Shown piece by piece: positions 8,881 through 19,524 of a stretch of 36,941 bases of DNA (position 1 is its first letter; every line of letters begins with the position of its first letter). The notes beneath the pieces were generated by a model. It saw only the letters and a list, made by a program, of their open reading frames with translations, did not search any database and was not told the DNA's origin. This stretch comes from Bacteroidota bacterium (GTDB lineage: Bacteria > Bacteroidota > Bacteroidia > AKYH767-A > OLB10): NCBI GenBank assembly GCA_025352785.1, contig JANXSD010000084.1, positions 1 to 36,941 of the forward strand. The letters are read 5' to 3'. The translations under genes and the position numbers were made by a program.

Positions 8881-8938
8881 TTCAGAGTTAAGAATTTAGA
8901 ATGCAGAATTGAAAAAAATAAATTATACGAATTGCGAA

Positions 8939-8967
8939 AGAGGCTTCAGAGATGAAGCCTCTTTTTT
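8939..8967 (+). terminator. Rho-independent terminator of the rimP-nusA-infB operon
   Basis: AGAGGCTTCA (8939-8948) and TGAAGCCTCT (8953-8962) form a perfect 10-bp stem with a GAGA loop, followed directly by six T residues (8962-8967). It lies 58 bases after the infB stop and marks the end of the conserved operon and the start of the accessory region. Confidence 0.92.
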
Positions 8968-8983
8968 GAAGGTTAAAAATTTT

Positions 8984-9100
8984 CAGCTGCATTTCCTGTT
9001 TTTGGATAAAACACGCCAACAATAACGAATGGATTTTTGGATCTGCGCATAAGCCATTCCGTTGTCGTGCCAAGGAAAAGAGGTACAGGGCATTATTAAT
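8984..9100 (-). other. Possible coding or interspersed-repeat remnant
   Basis: This short stretch has a higher GC content than its surroundings. Its minus strand reads in one frame as a plausible short peptide (TEWLMRRSKNPFVIVGVF, then YPKTGNAAENF and a stop) without a usable start codon, and another frame is also open. It looks like a leftover piece of a repeat or gene 3' end rather than a functional gene. No homologue is recognised with certainty. Confidence 0.25.
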
Positions 9101-9125
9101 GAAATCTGAAGAGTATTAAAAAAGG

Positions 9126-9344
9126 TTATTTACTTTTTTTAGCTTCAAATTGTGCTTTCGTTGCTTCAAATTGTTCTTTTACAACTGCAATTATTTTTTC
9201 CGTAAAAATTTCTGAAATTTCCTTTACAGACATTCCTTGATGAATGTTTAAGTCTTTTTCAGACGGATCTTTAAAAGCGGATAATATGTTTTTTTTAGAG
9301 TAAGAATTATTTGCGAAATTTTTACTGAATGATAATGTTTCCAT
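9126..9344 (-). CDS. Small protein of unknown function paired with the Ntn hydrolase
   Basis: The 72-residue hydrophilic protein has no signal peptide or membrane segment. Its C-terminal half (VKEISEIFTEKIIAVVKEQF and onward) is predicted to be one long charged helix ending in AKKSK. It starts four bases after the stop of the upstream hydrolase gene on the same strand, so the two are probably co-translated and may interact. Candidate roles are a substrate, an inhibitor, an assembly factor or an adaptor of the hydrolase; nothing in the sequence decides between these. It is not recognised as a member of a known family. Confidence 0.65.
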   Translation of the reverse strand: METLSFSKNFANNSYSKKNILSAFKDPSEKDLNIHQGMSVKEISEIFTEKIIAVVKEQFEATKAQFEAKKSK

Positions 9345-9348
9345 ATCT

Positions 9349-10641
9349 CTAAATTTTAAAATAGTTGTCGAAGAAATGTTGGTTTAATTCAGGTTTAAAA
9401 TAGTGTTTTCGCTTTATCCATACAAAGCCGTCTCCTTTTGAAATAACAGCAACATCAACAGGTCCACCAACGCTCTCTTCTGCAAAGGTAATTCTTCTTT
9501 TCAAATATGTCAAGTAAATTAAGCTTTCAGCCATTTCTGAAAGATCCTCTTTTGCCAGATTACTTACGGCATTCATTAATGGTGTTATATGGTTTTCCTG
9601 TTTAATTTGTTGATTTAACGACCTGAATTCATTAACAATTGCTAACGTGTCGAGGTTTTGTATTTGTTCTTTTAAAAGAGGATTTGTATTACCAATACTA
9701 TCCAAGATAGTTTGATTATAACGTTTAAACAAGGCATTAAAATTATTAAGATAAACGGCTTCAAGAGATGGGTCAATACCTGTCAAAATCGTGTCTATTA
9801 CATCGGTTTGAGCAAATGGACAAACTGCTCCATTATTACTGTTTGAAATCGAAGCTGCCCTATTTTCATTTACAAAATAACGTAGTCTATTGTCAACTAC
9901 AATTGATATATCAATAGGGATTAGTTGAGGATAAATTTCGTCTTCTCCGAATCCTGTGAAAATTAACCCCGTGAAATTTGTTAATTCTTCTTTTGCTCTA
10001 AGTATTGAGTGGACTGCTTGTTTTATTTTTAGCAAAAGGGTAGGCGAAATTAGAATTCCATTTGTTACAAAACGAAGTTGATTTATTCTATCAAACAATT
10101 CTTTAGAGTAATCCGAAAACATCTCGAAGGTGTAATCAATAAACTCTGGACAAAATTCGGTCTGTGAACCCCAATCCGTAATTAAATTATCAATTAGTTT
10201 TTCCAAAGTATTTAAAAATCCCTCCTTGCTCTCAATAGACGCATTTTCAATTAGGTTTTTGTTTTGGATTGGAATATCATTTAACACGGAGTTTATAATG
10301 TTTAAGGCGAATGCTTCCAAAAATGAAACTTGCAGAGCAATGTCCGTATAAAAATTTTTTGAACGAAGAAATTCGATAAAATTCTCTTCATATTCCTTTA
10401 AGGTTGAAAAGGATATTTCACCAAGTTGTTTTCTGTAAACTTTTATAATTGTTTCCCACGGAGTCGACATAAAAGATGCAGAATTGTAAATCATTATTCC
10501 GATAGGATGTAATTTTGATAATGCAAATACTTTATTCGCCTTGTTGAAAATTTTACGTTCACCATTACTTCCAATTGTAACTGCACTATCTGCTGCAATT
10601 GCGATTGCATGTTTATTTAAGATACCAACTACTGCTGTCAT
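9349..10641 (-). CDS. Large proteasome-like (Thr-nucleophile) Ntn hydrolase homologue
   Basis: The protein has 430 residues. Its first 40 residues match the N-terminus of mature proteasome beta/HslV subunits. Thr2 would become the N-terminal nucleophile after Met removal; counting Thr2 as position 1, Asp falls at 17 (AADS), Thr at 21, and Lys at 33 with another at 36 before VF. These are the positions of Thr1, Asp17, Thr21 and Lys33 in proteasomes. No propeptide is needed. The C-terminus has GGPVDVAVISKGDGFVWI, like a late beta-strand of the fold. Between them, about 80-390 is mostly helical and not like HslV or Anbu, making the protein almost twice the usual size. It is probably an N-terminal-nucleophile amidohydrolase or protease with an insertion domain; the substrate is unknown. 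It forms an operon with a 72-aa gene. No signal peptide is seen, so it is probably cytoplasmic. Confidence 0.7.
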   Translation of the reverse strand: MTAVVGILNKHAIAIAADSAVTIGSNGERKIFNKANKVFALSKLHPIGIMIYNSASFMSTPWETIIKVYRKQLGEISFSTLKEYEENFIEFLRSKNFYTDIALQVSFLEAFALNIINSVLNDIPIQNKNLIENASIESKEGFLNTLEKLIDNLITDWGSQTEFCPEFIDYTFEMFSDYSKELFDRINQLRFVTNGILISPTLLLKIKQAVHSILRAKEELTNFTGLIFTGFGEDEIYPQLIPIDISIVVDNRLRYFVNENRAASISNSNNGAVCPFAQTDVIDTILTGIDPSLEAVYLNNFNALFKRYNQTILDSIGNTNPLLKEQIQNLDTLAIVNEFRSLNQQIKQENHITPLMNAVSNLAKEDLSEMAESLIYLTYLKRRITFAEESVGGPVDVAVISKGDGFVWIKRKHYFKPELNQHFFDNYFKI

Positions 10642-10729
10642 ATTTTATAAAATTTATATGATAAAATCCCGAAATTGAATTTGCCTTGAATAAAAAATAT
10701 TTTTAATAATTATTCAACTATCACTATTG

Positions 10730-10737
10730 CAAATTTA
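10730..10737 (-). promoter_or_regulatory. Candidate -7 element for the Ntn hydrolase operon
   Basis: On the minus strand TAAATTTG fits the Bacteroidota -7 consensus TAnnTTTG. It would start transcription near 10723, about 80 bases before the ATG at 10641. No TTG is found at the expected -33 position, so the assignment is weak. Confidence 0.35.
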
Positions 10738-10868
10738 CAATGTAATTTTATAGGAAAAAATTCGATTCTAAAATTATAGTTGATTTTCCTCTAAATTATA
10801 TTTATAAGTATTTGTTGTCGGGTAAATAAGAAAAAAGCAGTTTTTATTAGAGAACAGTAAAATTAATT

Positions 10869-11009
10869 TTATCCGAATGCTCTGTCGTCGCCTTCGGATG
10901 CCATGAATAAATAATGATCATAAATCACATCGCATTTAACACTGTTAATAGCTCTGTCATAACTATTCGGTAGAGAATCGTCTAGTACTTTTTTTATTGC
11001 AGTTTGCCT
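10869..11009 (-). pseudogene. Gene remnant resembling the C-terminus of a type I restriction enzyme R subunit
   Basis: The minus strand is open for 46 codons without a start codon and reads as protein-like sequence ending IYDHYLFMASEGDDRAFG and a stop. The segment VLDDSLPNSYDRAINSVKCD resembles the helical C-terminal tail of HsdR-type subunits (LPxxYDRxxFxxKCxxVYxH pattern, from memory of the family). The rest of such a gene would lie at higher coordinates, but that DNA is now the promoter region of the XRE-ImmA gene, so only a tail survives. The open frame and codon-like composition are seen; the family assignment is tentative. Confidence 0.35.
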
Positions 11010-11070
11010 TCAAATTTGGTTTTATGATGGACGCATTTTAGCCGATTGGTGAAAAAATTCATAAAATTAA

Positions 11071-11110
11071 TGGTTGACAATAAATAATAATTTATTATTT
11101 TTGTCAACCA
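11071..11110. promoter_or_regulatory. Palindromic operator overlapping the promoter of the XRE-ImmA/PIN operon
   Basis: TGGTTGACAA (11071-11080) and TTGTCAACCA (11101-11110) are exact reverse complements. The inner arms AAATAATAA (11082-11090) and TTATTATTT (11092-11100) also pair, giving a 19-bp stem with one unpaired base. The same DNA holds a promoter: TTG at 11074-11076 as the -33 element, 19 bases, then TATTTTTG at 11096-11103 fitting the -7 consensus TAnnTTTG. Transcription would begin near 11110, about 25 bases before the ATG at 11134. A repressor bound here would block polymerase, most likely the HTH protein encoded next. Confidence 0.8.
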
Positions 11111-11133
11111 TAATGAGAACTGAAATAAATTGA

Positions 11134-12207
11134 ATGATGGAAAATGTATTTGGCAATAGGCTAGTGTCAGCACGAAAGATGGCTGGTATGTCCTTACAAG
11201 ACTTGGAAACCAAACTTGAAAAAGTTGTTTCTCGTCAGGCATTACATAAATACGAACAAGGCAAGATGAAACCAGATAGTCAGGTTTTAATCGCCCTATC
11301 AAATTCGTTGAATGTGCCTGTTGATTATTTCTATTCAATTCCTATTGTCCAAATAGAACTCAAAAACATAAGTTATAGAAAATACTCTTCAAAGATTTCA
11401 AAAACTGAACAAGTTTCGGTTGAAGAAAAGACTAAGGAAAATTGTGAACGTTACATAGAATTGGAACATTTGATTAATCCAAATGAAAAGTCAGAATACT
11501 TTGTTTATGATAAAGTAATTGAGAATGCTGATGATGCTGAAACTGCTGCAAAAAAAATGAGAGAAGTTTGGAAGCTTGGTTATGATCCTATCCCAGATGT
11601 TGTGGCGATGTTAGAGGATAAAGGTTATAAAGTAATTGAGCTGGATGCTCCTGAAGGTTTTGATGGAATGAAAGCTGATATTGGTGTTAATAAAATAATT
11701 GTTCTGAAAAAAAGTGTGAAGGAAGGTGAAGATGTAGTTAGAAAAAGATTTACTGCTTTACATGAATTGGCTCATCACTCTTTAAAATTCTCAAACAAAC
11801 TTACTGATAAGGAAGAAGAAAATTTACGTCATTCGTTTGCTTGTGCTGTTTTATATCCTGCAGATATGGCAAATAAAGAATTGAGTAAAGACAGATTTCA
11901 TTTTTATCAAAATGAATTGATTTTGATAAAAGAAAGATGGGGGATTTCTTTTCCTGCTATTTTCTCAAGGGCATTACTTCTTGGTATCATCACCAGTTTT
12001 ATTTATAGAAAGTTCAACGTGGGTTATAGAGAAAGAAAATTGCATTTGAATGAACCTGGAAAATTTATGAGCAAGGAAAAACCTGTGAAGATTCAACGAC
12101 TAGTCTATATGGGTTTGTCAAAGGAAATTTTAACTATAAACGAAGCAGCATATTATCTTGGAATGAGTGCATGGAAATTTAAAGAACAATTGCATCAGAT
12201 AATATGA
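11134..12207 (+). CDS. XRE-family regulator fused to an ImmA/IrrE-type zinc metallopeptidase
   Basis: The protein has 357 residues. Residues 1-70 form an XRE helix-turn-helix (FGNRLVSARKMAGMSLQDLE, then VSRQALHKYEQGKMKPDSQV). Residues about 130-300 form the COG2856/DUF955 peptidase domain with HELAH at 210-214, the HExxH zinc motif, and a downstream Glu near 228 as likely third ligand. The C-terminal 50 residues are helical and may be a second small DNA- or protein-binding module. Proteins of this architecture act as repressors and antitoxins or, like ImmR/ImmA and PprI/IrrE, cleave a repressor on a signal. The stop overlaps the next start in ATGA (12204-12207), coupling it to the PIN gene. 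The palindrome at 11071-11110 suggests autoregulation. Confidence 0.9.
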   Translation: MMENVFGNRLVSARKMAGMSLQDLETKLEKVVSRQALHKYEQGKMKPDSQVLIALSNSLNVPVDYFYSIPIVQIELKNISYRKYSSKISKTEQVSVEEKTKENCERYIELEHLINPNEKSEYFVYDKVIENADDAETAAKKMREVWKLGYDPIPDVVAMLEDKGYKVIELDAPEGFDGMKADIGVNKIIVLKKSVKEGEDVVRKRFTALHELAHHSLKFSNKLTDKEEENLRHSFACAVLYPADMANKELSKDRFHFYQNELILIKERWGISFPAIFSRALLLGIITSFIYRKFNVGYRERKLHLNEPGKFMSKEKPVKIQRLVYMGLSKEILTINEAAYYLGMSAWKFKEQLHQII

Positions 12208-12704
12208 AACTAATTATTACAGATAGCAGCGTATTTTTTGATATTATTAAGATAAAGGCATTGCCTGAATTCTTTGCTTTGGATTTTGAAATCTGCACTA
12301 CTGATTTTGTAAAAGGAGAAATTCTAGAATCGGAACAAAAAGAACAAATTGAAATGTTCATCCGTTCTCAAAAGCTAATTGTTTTTGAGTTAAGTGAAAA
12401 AGAAATTGAGGAAATAGAAAAGTTTAAAACAAAGCGAGTTTTTAAAACACTTATTGATAAAACAGTTTTATGGAAAGCAAAGCAATTGAAATGTCCTTTA
12501 TTGACTGGAGATGCTAAGTTAAAAAGCGAAGCAATTGAGCAAGGAGTTACGGTTCATGGAAGTTTGTGGGTTATTGAAATTATGGTTGACAACAAAGTTA
12601 TTACGTCAGAAGTAGGAGTTGAGTTTTTAGAAAGACTAAAGATTTGTAATGATCGTTTGCCATTAGATGAAATAGAAAAATTGATAAAGAAATTAAAATC
12701 GTAA
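12204..12704 (+). CDS. PIN-like domain protein, probable ribonuclease toxin
   Basis: The 166-residue protein carries the spaced acidic residues of PIN nucleases: Asp7 (ITDSSV), Glu39 (FVKGEIL), Asp85 (LIDKTVLWKAKQL) and Asp103 (LLTGDAKLKSEA). The order and spacing fit a metal-dependent RNase active site. The C-terminal 45 residues (about 122-166) are helical and extend beyond the minimal PIN fold. The start overlaps the stop of the XRE-ImmA gene by four bases. By analogy with known PIN toxin-antitoxin loci it is probably the toxin and the upstream protein its antitoxin and regulator; that pairing is inferred from context. Confidence 0.75.
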   Translation: MKLIITDSSVFFDIIKIKALPEFFALDFEICTTDFVKGEILESEQKEQIEMFIRSQKLIVFELSEKEIEEIEKFKTKRVFKTLIDKTVLWKAKQLKCPLLTGDAKLKSEAIEQGVTVHGSLWVIEIMVDNKVITSEVGVEFLERLKICNDRLPLDEIEKLIKKLKS

Positions 12705-12715
12705 ATAAAATAAAT

Positions 12716-12918
12716 ATGAAAAATGTACAAAATTCAGGTAAAACTTGGTCTACAGAAGACTTGAAGAAGCTTGAAAAATTAGCAACGGAAACACACCCAC
12801 AGGTCTCATTGCTTATAAATTTAAGCGAACAGAAGCTGCAATTTATTCAAAAGCCTCAGCTGAGAATATTTCACTTCATCCAACAAATCAATCACATTAT
12901 AATAGAAGAAAAAAGTAA
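12716..12918 (+). pseudogene. Frameshifted SANT/Myb-like small DNA-binding protein gene
   Basis: The first 25 codons (MKNVQNSGKTWSTEDLKKLE and onward) run into the wrong frame after ATE. Reading the +1-shifted frame from about 12792 gives TPTGLIAYKFKRTEAAIYSK, then a segment ending PTNQSHYNRRKK, with a stop at 12916-12918. Joined, they make a protein of about 67 residues of a familiar Bacteroidota/Proteobacteria type with a Myb/SANT-like tri-helix (W-x-x-x-D, I-A-x-K-x-x-R-T-x-x-A). Adding one A to the run at 12789-12791 restores the frame and the expected E-N-T-P-T. The lesion is therefore a single-base deletion in an A run, unless it is a sequencing error. It lies 11 bases after the PIN gene. 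Confidence 0.75.
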
Positions 12919-13414
12919 TCATAGAAATTTTCTATCTCTACAATGATTACGTTCAAATTGTAAATACTGACGAAAGTGTTTTTGCAATTTTCTTTAATGA
13001 AAATAGTGGAAAAGTGTTTTTCCGCTATAAGATTGGATGACACTCGCAGGTAATGCATCCTGGAATATACTTAGGTAAGGACTTATACGTTATTGAATAT
13101 TTTTTACATAAGCACTATTATTTTGGAAAGGCGAGTATTACAACTGCAACAGATTTTAAAAACGGAAGGCCATTATATATTTATAATAAGAAATGTTTAA
13201 TGCTTCATTGAAAGTAATTGAAGTTGGGTTGAAAGAAATTCTTAGAGGCGAGAGTTATAAACCAATTTCATACAACTGTCAAACTTTTACAGATACTGCA
13301 TGTAATAATGAGCGCAAAAGTGCTGATGCTACAAAATGGATTGAAAGAATTTTATTCGGTAGTGCTGCATTGATCGTATTAGGTGCTGTTTTTGGTGGCG
13401 GTAATGGTAGGTGA
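12906..13414 (+). pseudogene. Broken LRAT-like (permuted NlpC/P60) acyltransferase or peptidase gene
   Basis: Three open pieces together read as one LRAT/NC-domain protein. The first piece (12906-13037) has no clear start and ends at TGA 13038-13040. The second continues in the same frame with MHPGIYLGKDLYVIEYF, the conserved His-x-GIYLG motif (from 13053). A one-base shift in the AAA at 13191-13193 leads to the third piece, which carries SYNCQTF with the likely catalytic Cys (codon 13277-13279) and a C-terminal hydrophobic segment (ILFGSAALIVLGAVFGG) that could anchor it in a membrane. Intact relatives have a His and a Cys forming the thiol active site. At least one nonsense codon and one frameshift make it inactive here. 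The nature of the 12906-13037 part is uncertain. Confidence 0.65.
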
Positions 13415-13416
13415 CA

Positions 13417-13548
13417 CTATTCTTCCGCCGCCAATGAAACCCTCCCTTTTGCCATTGCATATTCCTTTGGTGCTGCTTGCCACAATTTATTTATCTCATC
13501 TTTTATTGTTCGAACTTTTACACGAAGGCTCTGCTTATGCAAAGTTTT
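13417..13548 (-). pseudogene. Short coding-like remnant of unknown origin
   Basis: The minus strand between stop codons reads as 43 residues of plausible coding sequence (VRTIKDEINKLWQAAPKEYA, then MAKGRVSLAAEE and a stop) with no start codon at its upstream end. It looks like the 3' end of a lost gene. The plus-strand open frame at 13383-13574 over the same DNA reads as unlikely Leu/Pro-rich sequence. No family was recognised. Confidence 0.3.
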
Positions 13549-13587
13549 TTAAAGCGGCACTTTTATTGAAATAATTATTAAATTTCA

Positions 13588-14102
13588 CTATATTATTGGT
13601 TGTGGTTTACTTCCTGGAATCCATCTAGGAACTTTTTTAGAATATTGTAAATATTCTTCACCAAAACATTGAAGAAGATACGGATCTTCATAATCACAAA
13701 TATAAATATATGATAATCTTGACCAAATTGTTAACCATAAAAAAGTAAATAGGGAGCAATACGTAATCACCTCTCCAAAAAGGACAAATAGTAATGCCCA
13801 CATCATTGGATGCCTTACTAAGGCATATGGTCCAGAAGTTACAAGTTTAGTTGGTTTAATAAAAGGAATAACAGAACCAAATTTATTTAAGAACATTAAT
13901 AATCCACACAAAGTCGCTAAAAGAGCGCCTGACCACATGAATATGACACCAGTTTTATCCATATAATATATAAATGGAGGTGAATAGAATTTCGAATCTA
14001 ATTCTCGGAAAAATTTAGGGAACACAAATAAAACTGAAAATGGGACGATAAATAAATAAATAAATAAATGGCACTGTCGATTAGTTTTATTAGATATTTC
14101 AT
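13588..14102 (-). pseudogene. Isoprenylcysteine/phospholipid methyltransferase-like membrane protein, out of frame at an (AAAT)5 tract
   Basis: From a GTG at 14025 the frame encodes 145 residues with the ICMT/PEMT-family signature: GPYALVRHPMMWALLF, then YEDPYLLQCFGEEYLQYSKK and VPRWIP near the C-terminus. Several hydrophobic segments mark it as an integral membrane SAM-dependent methyltransferase-like protein. The GTG start is probably not the original one. Upstream in the same frame the DNA still encodes HLFIYLFIVPFSVLFV, a membrane helix, back to a stop at 14110-14112 with no ATG. An ATG at 14102 in another frame gives MKYLIKLIDSAIYLF and joins this helix perfectly if one ATTT unit is added or two removed at 14050-14069. 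The gene may be phase-variable (off here) or a recent pseudogene. Restored length is about 172 residues. Confidence 0.75.
14050..14069. repeat. (AAAT)5 tetranucleotide repeat inside the methyltransferase-like gene
   Basis: Five perfect AAAT units lie 33-52 bases downstream of the candidate ATG at 14102 on the minus strand (read there as ATTT). With five copies the ATG frame reaches a stop after 34 codons. Six or three copies would join it to the long methyltransferase frame. Tetranucleotide tracts near gene starts are a classical slipped-strand switching device. The repeat and frame arithmetic are seen directly; switching is inferred. Confidence 0.7.
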
Positions 14103-14456
14103 GTTTATTCTAAAGTGCTTTATATGATTGGGACAGTCATTTATAATCTCATTACAAACCGAATGAGTTTTCTATTACCATTTTTCTTTTAAAGACATGT
14201 TGTTTTTGCTAATAGAGGCCAAATGAAAACAATGATTTTTTGAGTATTTTATTAAAACGATAATTTATGATTTTTTGCGATTCAAGTTTACTTTTGTTTT
14301 ATCACGGAATCGATTTTTAAATGTAATTATCTAATTATTAGTGTTTTAAACGCGTAAAGAACCTTGAAAGCAGTTCTAATCATAAATTGTCATTTAGCAA
14401 ATATAATTGTCTTTTTGACAACTACAAATATAAGTCCTTCGTCTCAACATAAGTTT
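14103..14456. other. AT-rich intergenic region between the methyltransferase-like gene and the second XRE gene
   Basis: About 350 bases without a supported gene. On the plus strand TACTTTTG at 14289-14296 fits the -7 consensus TAnnTTTG but lacks a TTG at -33; it could serve the XRE gene with a leader of about 150 bases. The region ends with a short palindrome at 14407-14421. An in-frame TTG at 14364 would extend the XRE gene backward but adds an unconserved hydrophobic stretch and is not used. Confidence 0.45.
14407..14421. promoter_or_regulatory. Short palindrome, possible operator of the second XRE regulator
   Basis: TTGTC and GACAA flank five T residues, giving a perfect 15-base dyad 36 bases upstream of the ATG at 14457. 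Its half-site (TTGAC/GTCAA-like) is similar to the outer arm of the 11071-11110 operator. XRE regulators usually bind such dyads near their own promoter, so autoregulation is possible. Five-base arms can occur by chance. Confidence 0.3.
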
Positions 14457-14825
14457 ATGCAGAAACGGGTATTACATATAGGAAAGAAAATAAAAATGCT
14501 ACGGGCTTTTAAGGGACTTACTCAAGAGGATCTGGCTAAGAAAATTAATAAAACGCGATCAATGGTATCTTTCATTGAGCAAACGGGTAAGACGAACCAT
14601 TATACGTTGATGGCAATTTTGAAAGCACTCAATATTTCAGAATCGGAAATAGAAAGTTTTGATGGTAAAGTCTTTGGTCCAAATGAACTTGAAGCATTTT
14701 ATAAAACGGAGTTGGAATTAATAAAGCAAAAATTGGAGACGCTTATCAAAGAAAATGAAGCATTGAAAGAGTTGATTGTTTCTCAGAAAAAATTGATAGC
14801 ACTCCATGAGAAGAAAAGAAAATGA
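14457..14825 (+). CDS. XRE-family transcriptional regulator with C-terminal coiled coil
   Basis: From the ATG at 14457 the protein has 122 residues. Residues 1-65 form the Cro/CI helix-turn-helix (HIGKKIKMLRAFKGLTQEDL, then KTRSMVSFIEQTGKTNHYTL). Residues about 75-122 form a charged coiled coil (ELELIKQKLETLIKENEALK) likely used for dimerisation. The architecture is common in Bacteroidota regulators of unknown targets. The start is chosen at MQKRVLHIG because this matches the usual distance to the HTH, and the upstream extension runs through a possible operator. The gene ends at a strong two-way terminator. Neighbours give no clear target. Confidence 0.85.
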   Translation: MQKRVLHIGKKIKMLRAFKGLTQEDLAKKINKTRSMVSFIEQTGKTNHYTLMAILKALNISESEIESFDGKVFGPNELEAFYKTELELIKQKLETLIKENEALKELIVSQKKLIALHEKKRK

Positions 14826-14832
14826 TTCTAAA

Positions 14833-14879
14833 AAATAAACAAGCAAGGCTTCCAATTTGGAAGCCTTGCTTGTTTATTT
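14833..14879. terminator. Bidirectional terminator between the XRE gene and the secreted-protein gene
   Basis: Arms at 14833-14854 and 14858-14879 are perfect reverse complements over 22 bases, with a 3-base loop. The GC-rich core AAGCAAGGCTTCC is flanked by an A-rich and a T-rich side, so the hairpin can terminate transcription from both strands. It lies directly between convergent genes. Confidence 0.9.
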
Positions 14880-14893
14880 ACAATGTGAAATTA

Positions 14894-16528
14894 TTATTGC
14901 AAAATTGCTTTTCCAATCCACATTTTTTTATAGTCCTCATCATGACCGAAGTAAGTAATTGTTTTATCTTTTTCATCATACGCTCCAGGAAAATCTTTTC
15001 TTAAATAGAATTTTTCATCGCCAAGAACTTTAAAAGAGTTAAGTGTAGATGTTGTTAAATCAACCTTCGCGATGCGTGGAAAAAATAAAGCATGAAATGT
15101 TTGTCTTCCGTTATAAGCATCCATAAAAGAAGCGTATCCTTTGGTTCCTTTTACCTCTAATACTTCCCAATAAACGCTTTTTCCATCAGAGGATGGATAG
15201 AAGTGTTGAATCATCTCAAAGATCTCACTTTTCTTATCATTATTCATTTTGTTAACGCCAAACTGTGCCTTTAACTTTCCCGTTTTGTCGAACTGAAAAC
15301 AAACAATATCTTCATAAGCGATTACAGAACTCTCGCCAAGCTTTACTCTTTCTTTCAACTGACCAGCGATTAAATAATCTTCATCAGCAGTAACATAAAA
15401 TTGCTCGACATGAAACTTTTTTCCCTTGTAAGGATCAGAACCTTTATCAGTAGCGGAAGTTTTAAACTTACTTTTGAATTCGCTTATTGGAGTTGTTGAT
15501 GCGAAGATTAATTTATTGTCTGTAAATTTTAGCAGATGAAAGTTGTCCATTTTTTCATTGGCTAATTTTTGCCATTTAGCATCATAGCGGTTATCGCCAC
15601 CTTCATAAAATCCAGGATTATAAATTGGCGCATACTCCCCGAATACTTGAGCATAATTCTCGGTTGATTTAGTAGAACTGCCGCTGAAATAAATATTTCC
15701 ATTGTTTTCAAAAGCAGCTGTTACAAGCATTGCATTCGAGGGACTTTTAAATTCTACCTTTGTTTTTAAATTGCCTTCAATATCATATTGAAAATAGACA
15801 TAATTATTCGCATCACCATTTCCTTTAGAAGGAGCAAATACCATCACTGTGTTTTCATTTGGCAGTTGATCGCAAAATACTAATGTGTAAGAACCGGTAA
15901 GATCAATTGGATTTTCTTTTAATTCCAGTTTATCATCGAATAGGAGAATATAGAATTTATCTGCTTGATTTTTTTCTTTCGAATCCATTTTTGCAATTAC
16001 CTGAACCCCGCTTTTGTTCGGATCTTCAGATTGATAGGAAGCATAACCAATATAAACTCTTCCATTATCATTTCTGGCTTTGATCGTTTCGTTAGAAACC
16101 ACCTTTTTAATCATGTAACGGGAAGTTTTATAATTCCATGTCCGTTGTTGTACTTGTTTCGATAGTTTTAATTTCATGCTGAGTACATCGAACGAAGAGA
16201 TCCCACCAACACTAGCGTAATAATAAGTTTTTTCAATATCGGCATGAGGTTCTCTTTTTACCTGGACATCCTTTGTAGATAAAAATTTCAGTGTGTTATC
16301 GAAACTATATTCTTCATAATTATCTTGCTCATCTTTTTTTTCACCACGCATCACATACGTTACTTTGATATTGCCTGCAGCATCTTTATCCGTATCATAC
16401 ATAAATCCTTTGTATGCTTTTTTTGATAATGGCTGAATTACTTCCTTTACTTCTTGCGCTTTTGCCTTGATAGCAATAAAGGCAATAATTGCTATCAAGA
16501 GCCATGTTTTTGCGAATAGTTTTTTCAT
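14894..16528 (-). CDS. Secreted protein of unknown function, 544 residues
   Basis: The N-terminus (MKKLFAKTWLLIAIIAFIAI, then KAKAQE) is a clear signal peptide with cleavage after AKA/Q. The rest is hydrophilic and beta-rich, with repeated short strands of the type NIYFSGSS, DNKLIFASTT, EDYLIAGQL and KSVYWEVL, which resemble blades of a beta-propeller; this fold is an inference. No catalytic motif or C-terminal sorting domain was recognised. It is therefore exported to the periplasm or outer surface. A near-perfect promoter precedes it, so it is transcribed separately from the two-component genes upstream on the same strand, although it could be a target of that system. Confidence 0.75.
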   Translation of the reverse strand: MKKLFAKTWLLIAIIAFIAIKAKAQEVKEVIQPLSKKAYKGFMYDTDKDAAGNIKVTYVMRGEKKDEQDNYEEYSFDNTLKFLSTKDVQVKREPHADIEKTYYYASVGGISSFDVLSMKLKLSKQVQQRTWNYKTSRYMIKKVVSNETIKARNDNGRVYIGYASYQSEDPNKSGVQVIAKMDSKEKNQADKFYILLFDDKLELKENPIDLTGSYTLVFCDQLPNENTVMVFAPSKGNGDANNYVYFQYDIEGNLKTKVEFKSPSNAMLVTAAFENNGNIYFSGSSTKSTENYAQVFGEYAPIYNPGFYEGGDNRYDAKWQKLANEKMDNFHLLKFTDNKLIFASTTPISEFKSKFKTSATDKGSDPYKGKKFHVEQFYVTADEDYLIAGQLKERVKLGESSVIAYEDIVCFQFDKTGKLKAQFGVNKMNNDKKSEIFEMIQHFYPSSDGKSVYWEVLEVKGTKGYASFMDAYNGRQTFHALFFPRIAKVDLTTSTLNSFKVLGDEKFYLRKDFPGAYDEKDKTITYFGHDEDYKKMWIGKAILQ

Positions 16529-16572
16529 ATTTTTTTTGGATGTCAGATAATTACTAGATAATTTAATTTTTT

Positions 16573-16602
16573 CAAAAGTACATCAAAAAACACCAAGAAC
16601 AA
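16573..16602 (-). promoter_or_regulatory. Bacteroidota-type promoter of the secreted-protein gene
   Basis: On the minus strand TTG (16602-16600), a 19-base spacer and TACTTTTG (16580-16573) match the -33/-7 consensus. Transcription would begin near 16566, about 38 bases upstream of the ATG at 16528. Confidence 0.7.
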
Positions 16603-16716
16603 TTACCTTTTAGTAGTAATTAATACAAATAAAAGAGTGAGAAGAAAAATCAATAATTTATTAAAAGATTATTTGAAGAACAGAAATAAATAAACCACGA
16701 TATAAAATATTTTCAT

Positions 16717-17346
16717 CTAGGCCTTTAACCCATATACTTTATTCAACGCATCTGTTCGCGAATTTACTTGTAATTTTTCGTAGATGTTACGAATATGTTT
16801 TCTTACGGTTTCTGTGCTGATAAAAAACTTATCCGAAATTTCTTTGTACCGTAATCCTTTAGAAAGTGCTTCAAGCATTTCTTTTTCTCGTGTTGAAAGC
16901 TTTTGTAGCTCAGTATTCACTTCTTTAACTTGAAAGGAGCTAACAATTTTTCTAGCGATATGACTACTCATTGGCGAACCACCTAAATAAAGATCTGTGA
17001 TTGCATCTAAAATCTTAATTGGTTGCGTTGTTTTTGTGATGTAACCACTTGCTCCTGCCTTTAATGCGTTGAAAACAGATTCAGTATCTTCAAAAGAAGT
17101 ACACATTAGGAATTGTGTTTTGGGGCAAAGGGGTTTTAAAATGGAAACAGCTTCAATTCCTGTCTTCCCTGGCAAATGAATATCTGTTAAAATAACATCT
17201 AAATTTAAAACTGGAATCTGCAAAATAGCTTTCTCAGCGGTTTCAAAAACATGGGTACAAGTAAATCCTTCACTTCCATGTATAAGTGCTACGAGACTTT
17301 CACGAATCTGCCTTTCATCTTCAATGATTCCAACTTTTATTTCCAT
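16717..17346 (-). CDS. NarL/FixJ-type response regulator (REC-LuxR)
   Basis: The protein has 209 residues from MEIKVG at 17346; a start 18 bases upstream is possible but gives an unusual N-terminus. The receiver domain (1-120) has the acidic pair Glu9/Asp10, phosphoacceptor Asp55 (VILTDIHLPGKTG), Thr83 and Lys105 (ITKTTQP). The LuxR-type HTH (about 147-209) has LSTREKEMLEALSKGLRYKE, then ISTETVRKHIRNIYEKL. It lies 50 bases downstream of the TPR histidine kinase on the same strand and is its obvious partner. Phosphorylated, it should bind DNA; direct repeats in front of the kinase gene are a candidate site. Confidence 0.93.
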   Translation of the reverse strand: MEIKVGIIEDERQIRESLVALIHGSEGFTCTHVFETAEKAILQIPVLNLDVILTDIHLPGKTGIEAVSILKPLCPKTQFLMCTSFEDTESVFNALKAGASGYITKTTQPIKILDAITDLYLGGSPMSSHIARKIVSSFQVKEVNTELQKLSTREKEMLEALSKGLRYKEISDKFFISTETVRKHIRNIYEKLQVNSRTDALNKVYGLKA

Positions 17347-17396
17347 GATCAAATTTACGTGCATGTTTTGATTTCACTATACCTCATAAGTAGTAT

Positions 17397-19169
17397 TTAT
17401 GATTTTCTAATATTTGTAAGGGGAACAATTATACTTAAAGTAGTACCTGACTGTTTGGAGCTATCTAAGTCAATTTGACCACCTGAAATAGTTATTCTAT
17501 GTCTCATATTTTTAAGGCCATTTCCGGAAAATGTTTGTTCTGTTTCAAAGCCAACACCATTATCGTTGATAATAATGGAAAGTGTATTATTAAAAAGACT
17601 AACATTTACTGCAACCTTAGTAGCTGAAGAATGTTTTACAATATTATTTAATATCTCTTTTACTGACATAAAGATATTACGATGACCTTCTTTCAATATT
17701 TGTAAATCAGTTATAACATCTGGATAATTATTCGTAAGTTCAATAGGAAATTCTTCTAAGTAATCTGTAGTGTATTCCCGAATACGAACAATGAGATTGT
17801 CTAATGTACTATTATCAGGATTTAATGCCCAAATAAGATCGCGCATATTCTCGATTAGATTTTTCGATGTTTCAGAGATGGAACTGAGCTTAGAATTTAT
17901 ATATTCATTGGAGTTTTTTAAAACTGTTTCTGAAAGGAAATTAATTTTTGTTAATCCAGATCCTAATTCATCATGAATGTCTTTTGCAATACGAATACGT
18001 TCCTTTTCTTCTGATTCTTTGATGGCTTGCTGTTGTGAAATTTTACTTTTTAATAGGTAACTTTTATTCCATTGGTATGCTATTCCAGCAATTGTAAATA
18101 TTAGTAAAATACAAAGTGCCAATAAGTAATTGCGCTTTTGAATTTCAATTTCTTGCTCTCGGATGGAAAGATTTTTTATCGTTTCATCTTTTTTTAACAA
18201 TGCAATTTCATCTAGTTGTTTGTCGGATTCATATTTTGTTTTTAATTCCGCTAGCTGACCAGAACGTTCACTACTTATGAAATTAAATTTTTCTTCTTCA
18301 TACATCTTTCTATAAGCAATCGCTTCAGGAAATTTTTGTAATTTTTCATAGGCTATAGAAATGCCATCATACGTTTCAATTATAATTTCTATTGCATTAA
18401 TTTCTTTTGATTTTTCTAGGGCCTCTTTACATAAACTAAGTGAGCGATGGTAGTCTCCTGTAAGCGCATACACATTTCCTAAGTTATTCAGCGTAGCAGC
18501 AACAATAAATTTATCATCTTGTTTAATGGAAAGTGCTAATGCTTGTTCGTAATAATTAATTGATTGGGAATATTTTTTTAGATATTTATATACAATTGCA
18601 AGGTTGTTCAGCGACATGGAAATTTTACCAGCTTCATTTTTAGCAGTATATATTTCAAGCGCTTTGGAATACACCTCCACAGCTTTGTCGTATTTATTTT
18701 GTTGCTCGTAAACAACGCCTTGATTGTTTAAGCAATCGGCAATTAAGATGGAATCGTTTAACTTAACTGCTAATGAAGAAGCAGACTCAAAATATCTTAG
18801 GGCAGTAACAAAATCTTTTTGTTCTGAATAAAGTGTTCCAATGTTTTTTGTTGTTTTTGCTATGCGCTGTTGGTCGTTATTCATTTCAGCAACTGAAATA
18901 GATAATTGATAAAACTTGAGGGCGTTTACGGATTCTCCGATTTTTGATAACGCATTCCCTAAATTATTATATGCATTTGCGAGCTCTTTTTTATTGTTTT
19001 CTTTTTTTGCAAGGTCTATACTATTAGAAAAATAAATTGTTGATTTTTTATACTCACCATGTAAATATAAATCGGTTCCGGTTTTCATTAAACTGTCCAA
19101 TACCCCAGCATTGACGGAAGAAAATAGTAAAAGAAAATATAGGAGAAATATTCTTTTTAATAGTTGCAT
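17397..19169 (-). CDS. TPR-containing sensor histidine kinase (HisKA_3 type)
   Basis: Read from the ATG at 19169 the protein has 590 residues. An N-terminal signal peptide (MQLLKRIFLLYFLLLFSSVN) is followed by about six tetratricopeptide repeats in the periplasm (about 25-300), each with the NNLGxVY...A-type pattern. A coiled coil follows, then one membrane segment (about 347-366, YLLALCILLIFTIAGIAYQW), then a HisKA_3 dimerisation domain with phosphoacceptor His399 (IAKDIHDELGSGL) and a C-terminal ATPase domain with DNGVGF and GNGLKNM. The TPRs probably sense a protein or peptide signal. The start at 19226 is rejected because the extra 19 residues translate a direct repeat in the leader. The response regulator follows. 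Confidence 0.92.
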   Translation of the reverse strand: MQLLKRIFLLYFLLLFSSVNAGVLDSLMKTGTDLYLHGEYKKSTIYFSNSIDLAKKENNKKELANAYNNLGNALSKIGESVNALKFYQLSISVAEMNNDQQRIAKTTKNIGTLYSEQKDFVTALRYFESASSLAVKLNDSILIADCLNNQGVVYEQQNKYDKAVEVYSKALEIYTAKNEAGKISMSLNNLAIVYKYLKKYSQSINYYEQALALSIKQDDKFIVAATLNNLGNVYALTGDYHRSLSLCKEALEKSKEINAIEIIIETYDGISIAYEKLQKFPEAIAYRKMYEEEKFNFISSERSGQLAELKTKYESDKQLDEIALLKKDETIKNLSIREQEIEIQKRNYLLALCILLIFTIAGIAYQWNKSYLLKSKISQQQAIKESEEKERIRIAKDIHDELGSGLTKINFLSETVLKNSNEYINSKLSSISETSKNLIENMRDLIWALNPDNSTLDNLIVRIREYTTDYLEEFPIELTNNYPDVITDLQILKEGHRNIFMSVKEILNNIVKHSSATKVAVNVSLFNNTLSIIINDNGVGFETEQTFSGNGLKNMRHRITISGGQIDLDSSKQSGTTLSIIVPLTNIRKS

Positions 19170-19187
19170 TTTATTTTGACTGAGTAT

Positions 19188-19220
19188 TTTGAATGGTATT
19201 GTTTGATATTTGAATGGTAT
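19188..19220. repeat. Two 12-bp direct repeats with 21-bp period upstream of the histidine kinase gene
   Basis: TTTGAATGGTAT occurs at 19188-19199 and at 19209-19220, a spacing of two helical turns, 19 bases in front of the kinase ATG at 19169. This arrangement is typical of binding sites for dimeric regulators, possibly the cognate LuxR-type response regulator. The repeats are exact; the binding role is inferred. Confidence 0.5.
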
Positions 19221-19524
19221 GTGCAAAACAATTTTCGAAAGATAGCAAAATCAAATTAGTTATAACTCGATGATGATTCTACTATAAGATTCAAAATGAA
19301 GATTTCATCTGATTTCTGTATTGTAAATTAAATGCATAATGGATATTCAGCTCATTCAAAGTTCAAGTAGGCAATGTAATTCTACTATCAATTTAATCGG
19401 AATAATCTTAAAGAACCAATATGTAGTTCTATTCATTTATAAATGATTTATCGCTTAAACCGATTATATTATTTAGAAACGTATATTCGTAGAGTTAATC
19501 TTTAAACTCACCTTATAAATCATT
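19221..19524. other. Intergenic region between the divergent kinase and nucleoside transporter genes
   Basis: About 300 bases of AT-rich DNA with no supported gene. On the plus strand TATATTCG at 19482-19489 is close to the -7 consensus TAnnTTTG and lies 36 bases before the transporter ATG, but no good TTG at -33 accompanies it. On the minus strand no full promoter match was found for the kinase gene. Confidence 0.4.

Follow-up and report, generated by a model that had tools for sequence, protein, structure and literature searches.

A proteasome-fold hydrolase, very probably of the PMI-4 family, is encoded with a small partner in a mobile two-gene module

The 430-aa protein encoded in the window (the whole stretch of 36,941 nucleotides that we analyzed) is a good example of a known, uncharacterized family of proteasome homologues, very probably PMI-4, and this family makes up one half of a mobile two-gene module that has apparently gone unreported. 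The other half is a tiny gene adjoining the end of the hydrolase gene. Our favored reading, to which we give a probability of about 0.45, is that the small partner controls a protease which lysogenic elements or satellites carry as cargo, most likely for defense against phages. PMI-4 is among the commonest of the new proteasome homologues and previously had neither function nor partner; the near-universal partner gene offers a first handle on it. Both ORFs of the preliminary description proved to be real, lying on the minus strand at 9349-10641 and 9126-9344. The larger one and its putative catalytic codons are as follows.

9349..10641, minus strand: 430-aa Ntn hydrolase resembling proteasome subunits, probably of the PMI-4 family, with a PHROG 5990 match
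10636..10638, minus strand: Thr2 codon, putative N-terminal nucleophile after Met removal, equivalent to proteasome Thr1 (homologue conservation, profile alignment)
10588..10590, minus strand: Asp18 codon, equivalent to proteasome Asp17 (kept in 73/73 homologues)
10531..10533, minus strand: Lys37 codon, best candidate for proteasome Lys33 (kept in 73/73; directly before strand 38-40 of the model)

The hydrolase matched phrog_5990 over residues 1-427 (E 9e-111). Single-sequence searches in Pfam, NCBIfam, PADLOC and PDB gave nothing useful, and the protein had no match at the curated cut-off of PF00227, to which 3 of 71 homologues showed weak matches (best E 0.0033). Profile-profile comparison with 20S beta and HslV placed Thr2 exactly on Thr1 with E values of 1e-4 to 1e-3 (best 1.3e-4), against 0.09-0.8 for column-shuffled control profiles. 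Among full-length homologues, position 2 is Thr in 71 of 73 and Ser in the other two, in line with the proposal that a Thr directly follows Met as in mature proteasome beta and HslV subunits; the proposed absence of a propeptide was likewise borne out. The residues assigned to the Asp17 and Thr21 positions also held, Asp18 being invariant (73/73) and Thr22 present in 71/73, with Ser in the remainder. The preliminary description had further named two lysines, Lys34 and Lys37, for positions 33/36. Both are present in the window's protein; Lys37 is kept in 73/73 but Lys34 is variable in the homologues, which carry chiefly Ser or Thr there, so that the conservation expected of Thr2, Asp18 and the lysines applies to all except Lys34. 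Lys30 is also invariant (73/73), and the hhalign register puts Lys30, not Lys37, at proteasome Lys33. Judged from these alignments, the protein is very probably a Thr-nucleophile enzyme with a Thr2, Asp18 and Lys37 set, and hydrolytic activity is predicted. The source genome has a single copy of it and lacks the classical proteasome family, a PF00227 search of the genome being without match.

In an AlphaFold2 model built on a 71-sequence alignment (pLDDT 87, pTM 0.84), strands and helices follow one another as in a proteasome subunit, and two helical inserts are added. The features outside the catalytic set are listed below.

9973..10422, minus strand: helical insert 1, residues 74-223 (model; mean conservation 0.35)
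9556..9780, minus strand: helical insert 2, residues 288-362 (model; mean conservation 0.38)
9397..9420, minus strand: near-invariant WIKRKHYF tail motif, residues 408-415 (conservation; partly low-confidence in the model)

In a Foldseek comparison of the model with the PDB, the leading matches were all 20S beta subunits, followed by Anbu (probability 1.00/0.99; top match 8u7u_K, E 2.6e-4). This confident model predicts a four-layer alpha-beta-beta-alpha fold related to 20S beta, as had been anticipated when the protein was called an Ntn hydrolase. The C-terminal strand GGPVDVAVI, said to fit the same fold, is present at residues 392-400, and residues 388-405 match the archaeal beta C-terminal strand (E 0.07). 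The middle of the protein, described as 300 helical residues, is indeed helical but consists of two inserts (about 74-223 and 288-362) separated in the model by core strands 224-277. These inserts are the most divergent parts of the hydrolase, whereas the N-terminal core and the C-terminal part are the most conserved (mean conservation 0.72-0.81 for the core segments at the two ends). Since the inserts occupy the sites of the pore loop and of the H3/H4 contacts in ring-forming relatives, a standard barrel is unlikely. Cullin-3, the top match of a PDB profile search with the hydrolase, was discarded as an artefact caused by the helical composition of insert 1.

Regarding the C-terminal tail, residues W408, K410, R411, K412, Y414 and F415 are kept in 71/71 homologues, and the motif was not found in the known proteasome subunits compared. 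It is one of the best-conserved segments in the family despite its partly low model confidence, with a pLDDT below 50 at residues 414-416. The tail is possibly a binding site that folds together with the partner or a substrate.

The description of 22 new proteasome homologues by Fuchs, Alva and Lupas (2021, PMC8665760) includes PMI-4 (Proteasome homolog with Multiple Insertions 4), which has insertions after H1/H2 and between H3/H4 and is spread over many bacterial phyla, cyanobacteria, euryarchaea and phages. PMI-4 is far commoner than PMI-3, the sole other PMI type with both insertions; no function was assigned to it, and no genomic context or co-occurrence suggestive of one was found (PMC8665760). 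When our model is set against this published description, residues 74-223 and 288-362 fall at the PMI-4 insertion sites, and the distribution of the hydrolase's relatives, 233 from genome contigs and 105 from viral ones, agrees with that of PMI-4. Because insertion sites and spread both coincide, we consider the hydrolase very probably a PMI-4 protein, a match made by the published description of the family (reference sequence HDY66466.1). Both have the proteasome fold and the Thr1/Asp17/Lys33 set without a propeptide, long insertions, and a wide distribution. The distinct new branch of Ntn hydrolases suggested in the preliminary description is therefore very probably a family published in 2021 (PMC8665760). 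Two features are apparently unreported and absent from that paper, the small partner, which is nearly universal, and the character of mobile cargo: whereas no informative context was noted there, we found a small partner at nearly every copy and locations in phage, satellite and plasmid cargo slots.

With 20S beta and HslV (PF00227) the hydrolase shares the fold, the Thr/Asp/Lys residues and the C-terminal strand, but it is twice as long, has two helical inserts and an invariant basic tail, and, unlike for 20S and HslV, no AAA+ partner was seen. Connectase is also a proteasome-like relative with an insertion, and is highly specific (PMC8665760); it differs in that its insertion lies between S3 and S4, H1/H2 are missing and no partner gene is described.

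The second gene of the module and its candidate docking motif have the following positions.

9126..9344, minus strand: dedicated partner protein of 72 aa, its start 4 bases past the hydrolase stop codon (ORF, selection, homologous loci)
9273..9290, minus strand: partner motif NILSAF, residues 19-24, corresponding to Bacteroidota DxLSxF; candidate docking motif (conserved in relatives; short helix in the L004 model)

As first described, four bases separate the hydrolase stop from the start of this minus-strand ORF. Its proposed status as a dedicated partner was upheld by the neighborhood survey, in which an ORF of 35-80 aa starting at or overlapping the hydrolase stop was found in 154 of 156 readable homologous loci. 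Under a strict rule (ATG-started ORF of 35-80 aa, start at -60 to +25 nt from the hydrolase stop), a partner was recovered in 150/156 loci, versus 86 of 673 control genes (13%), which were other large ORFs in the same loci. Among the six exceptions, four do have a partner, but one that starts with GTG or overlaps more deeply; L114 and L080 have an intact enzyme without recognizable partner. An independent whole-genome search gave four loci, three with a partner by the strict rule and the fourth with one at +33 nt. No other conserved neighbor was common to the homologous neighborhoods. Comparison with close relatives gave a dN/dS of 0.07-0.29, silent changes dominating; the 72-aa ORF is thus a real gene under purifying selection, which evolves faster than the enzyme core. 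Fusion of enzyme and partner was considered for a long Mesorhizobium protein and rejected: the partner there is an overlapping ORF in another frame, distinct from the protein's C-terminal extension.

The partner often lacks annotation and was probably overlooked for this reason and because it is tiny and divergent. Its sequences form several clusters: one in Bacteroidota with a DxLSxF motif and a C-terminal helix, a broad bacterial-archaeal one with an FFPKS-like motif, one in Bacilli (YFNLP), and one in enterobacterial phages (LREWQKKFNPS). An FF.P-like motif occurs in 47 of 131 partners versus 5 expected by shuffling, a statistic that ignores kinship. Together with the hhalign comparison WIN-L048 (E 0.001 over 35 columns), this faintly hints that all clusters might descend from a single common ancestor.

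Partner identity tracked insert 1 better than the core; permutation gave p values of 0.003 and 0.02 for the larger two of three clusters and 0.23 for the remaining one (n=11). A relative 71% identical to the hydrolase (L004) was modeled with enzyme and partner read through the stop codon as one chain. The first half of the partner was mostly unstructured (block pLDDT 31-40), a short isolated helix formed at the conserved DVLSAF (block pLDDT 76, between blocks of 36 and 40), and the C-terminal helix reached a block pLDDT of 57-80. This one uncontrolled monomer fusion model suggests that the DVLSAF motif may dock on the enzyme. Direct binding would be consistent with this single model and with the mirror-tree correlations, which phylogeny can inflate.

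In the mechanism that we infer, from Met removal through proteolysis, direct binding and partner control to defense, the first gene would encode the proteasome-fold Ntn hydrolase (very probably PMI-4), whose Thr2 would be exposed as nucleophile upon loss of the initiator Met, with Asp18 and Lys37 as catalytic partners. The second, translationally coupled gene would supply a protein of 35-80 aa binding the enzyme through its short hydrophobic motif, possibly also through its C-terminal helix, and probably at the divergent inserts. This small protein would either restrain the enzyme or direct it to a specific substrate. Carried by prophages, satellites, plasmids and islands as an accessory, the pair would most likely protect the host cell, or the element resident in it, from other phages through specific proteolysis triggered in infection.

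The 233 relatives in the genome collection, for 80 of which sequences were retrieved, come from Bacteroidota, Bacilli, Planctomycetota, Nitrospirota, Cyanobacteria and archaea, the closest (69-79%) being in records named Flavobacterium, Cytophagales, Flavobacteriaceae, Cyclobacteriaceae and Saprospiraceae. Among 121 close genomes, comprising the source and its relatives, there was one intact copy, that of the source genome, and one decayed piece; 296 Bacteroidota genomes held five intact copies. The module is mobile, being accessory cargo in phages, satellites, plasmids and islands. Plasmids of Rhizobium, Mesorhizobium, Ruegeria, Pantoea and Enterococcus carry it; it forms the end (last genes) of the Streptococcus satellites Javan103 and Javan468, follows the endolysin in Javan85, and lies between Q and holin in a Providencia phage. 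An E. coli prophage (L200) has it in antisense between Q and a methyltransferase, the hydrolase being WP_000123148.1 and the 49-aa partner ORF unannotated in RefSeq. Repressors and endolysins are the commonest neighboring families in viral loci, and in about ten distinct ones the module stands behind an XRE/CI-like repressor in the same orientation.

The lambda rexAB genes also sit behind the phage repressor. RexAB and other repressor-adjacent exclusion modules thus share with our module the same-orientation slot and the expected expression in lysogens; Rex, however, acts by another mechanism, and the likeness considered here is one of gene position. The defense reading draws, by analogy, on phage defense being a common role of such lysogen and satellite cargo. 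Cargo slots of this kind also house host-fitness or virulence genes. PADLOC had no model or match for either protein, and our literature search found no paper linking the hydrolase family to defense. The 148 chromosomal neighbors sampled (one sample, without a control sample) included few known defense genes and were mostly housekeeping, and the idea of a typical defense-island gene was rejected. A more specific proposal, which we regard as possible though clearly short of even odds, is a widespread superinfection-exclusion system on prophages and satellites, with a proteasome-family effector kept inactive or aimed by its often-unannotated micro-protein. If defense is indeed the role, prokaryotic immunity would gain an effector type with the proteasome fold, and a single testable system would take in satellites and prophages by the hundreds.

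In five of 165 loci (L002, L006, L008, L013 and L017) the hydrolase gene is intact except for one in-frame stop, at a different place in each; L008 also has a truncated partner. These single nonsense codons fit either repeated loss of an accessory gene that carries a cost or metagenome assembly error. As a sign of enzyme cost they would be compatible with toxin-antitoxin-like addiction, in which the hydrolase would be toxic to its own host, the small protein its antitoxin, and loss of the element would kill or arrest the cell. The partner's small size, fast evolution and translational coupling, the mobile carriers, and the toxin-antitoxin-like pair adjoining the window's module all suit this explanation, which we nevertheless consider rather unlikely: an antitoxin gene usually lies upstream or its product is made in excess, whereas the partner here is always downstream, and L114 and L080 keep an intact enzyme with no recognizable partner.

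The constant pairing could instead mean that the small protein is a dedicated substrate, cleaved or ligated in the manner of connectase, itself a specific ligase (PMC8665760), with the processed peptide as active signal or toxin. Some enterobacterial-phage partners do end in a common F[SNC]W-like tail, but no cleavage-like motif is common to all partners, and the motif they share (FF.P / DxLSxF) is hydrophobic and internal, leaving this explanation improbable. Equally improbable is ordinary protein quality control or a metabolic amidase, phage-unrelated and spread by transfer, for although many chromosomal copies have housekeeping neighbors and the location is stable in some flavobacteria, the distribution is very sporadic, 10-kb satellites carrying little beyond their needs include the module, and no linkage to an ATPase or a pathway was seen. 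The flavobacterial copies L025, L026 and L029-L031 are flanked by shared genes, a hemB homologue among them, and this suggests that they have been inherited vertically in place for a long time.

Returning to the window, the module lies within an insertion.

8881..19524, no strand assigned: ~10.6-kb insertion carrying the module, between infB and a nupC-like transporter gene (comparison with L217 and L218)

In the same-family genomes L217 and L218, the nupC homologue follows infB after about 100-385 bp. The island with a neighboring toxin-antitoxin-like pair, as originally described, corresponds to this variable insertion, which holds both the module and an Xre-M78/PIN-like pair. At 11134-12704 on the plus strand, a gene for an Xre-HTH and M78 (ImmA/IrrE-type) peptidase overlaps one for a 166-aa PIN-like protein with a weak DUF3368-like match; the two are a probable toxin-antitoxin pair. 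Other copies have neighbors of their own. Those on the Mesorhizobium (L202, 955-7437) and Rhizobium (L204, 3001-7221) plasmids lie near multiubiquitin-domain and ThiF-family (E1-like) genes, the former also near a RES/Xre pair. In the E. coli prophage (L200, 2144-5396), the hydrolase gene runs antisense to the late genes and has a DNA methyltransferase gene and two tRNA genes of the prophage (Gly, Thr) in its vicinity. Within the window's insertion, the minus-strand segment 14894-19226 encodes an unknown 544-aa protein, with no Pfam match above cut-off, together with a LuxR-type response regulator and a TPR histidine kinase.
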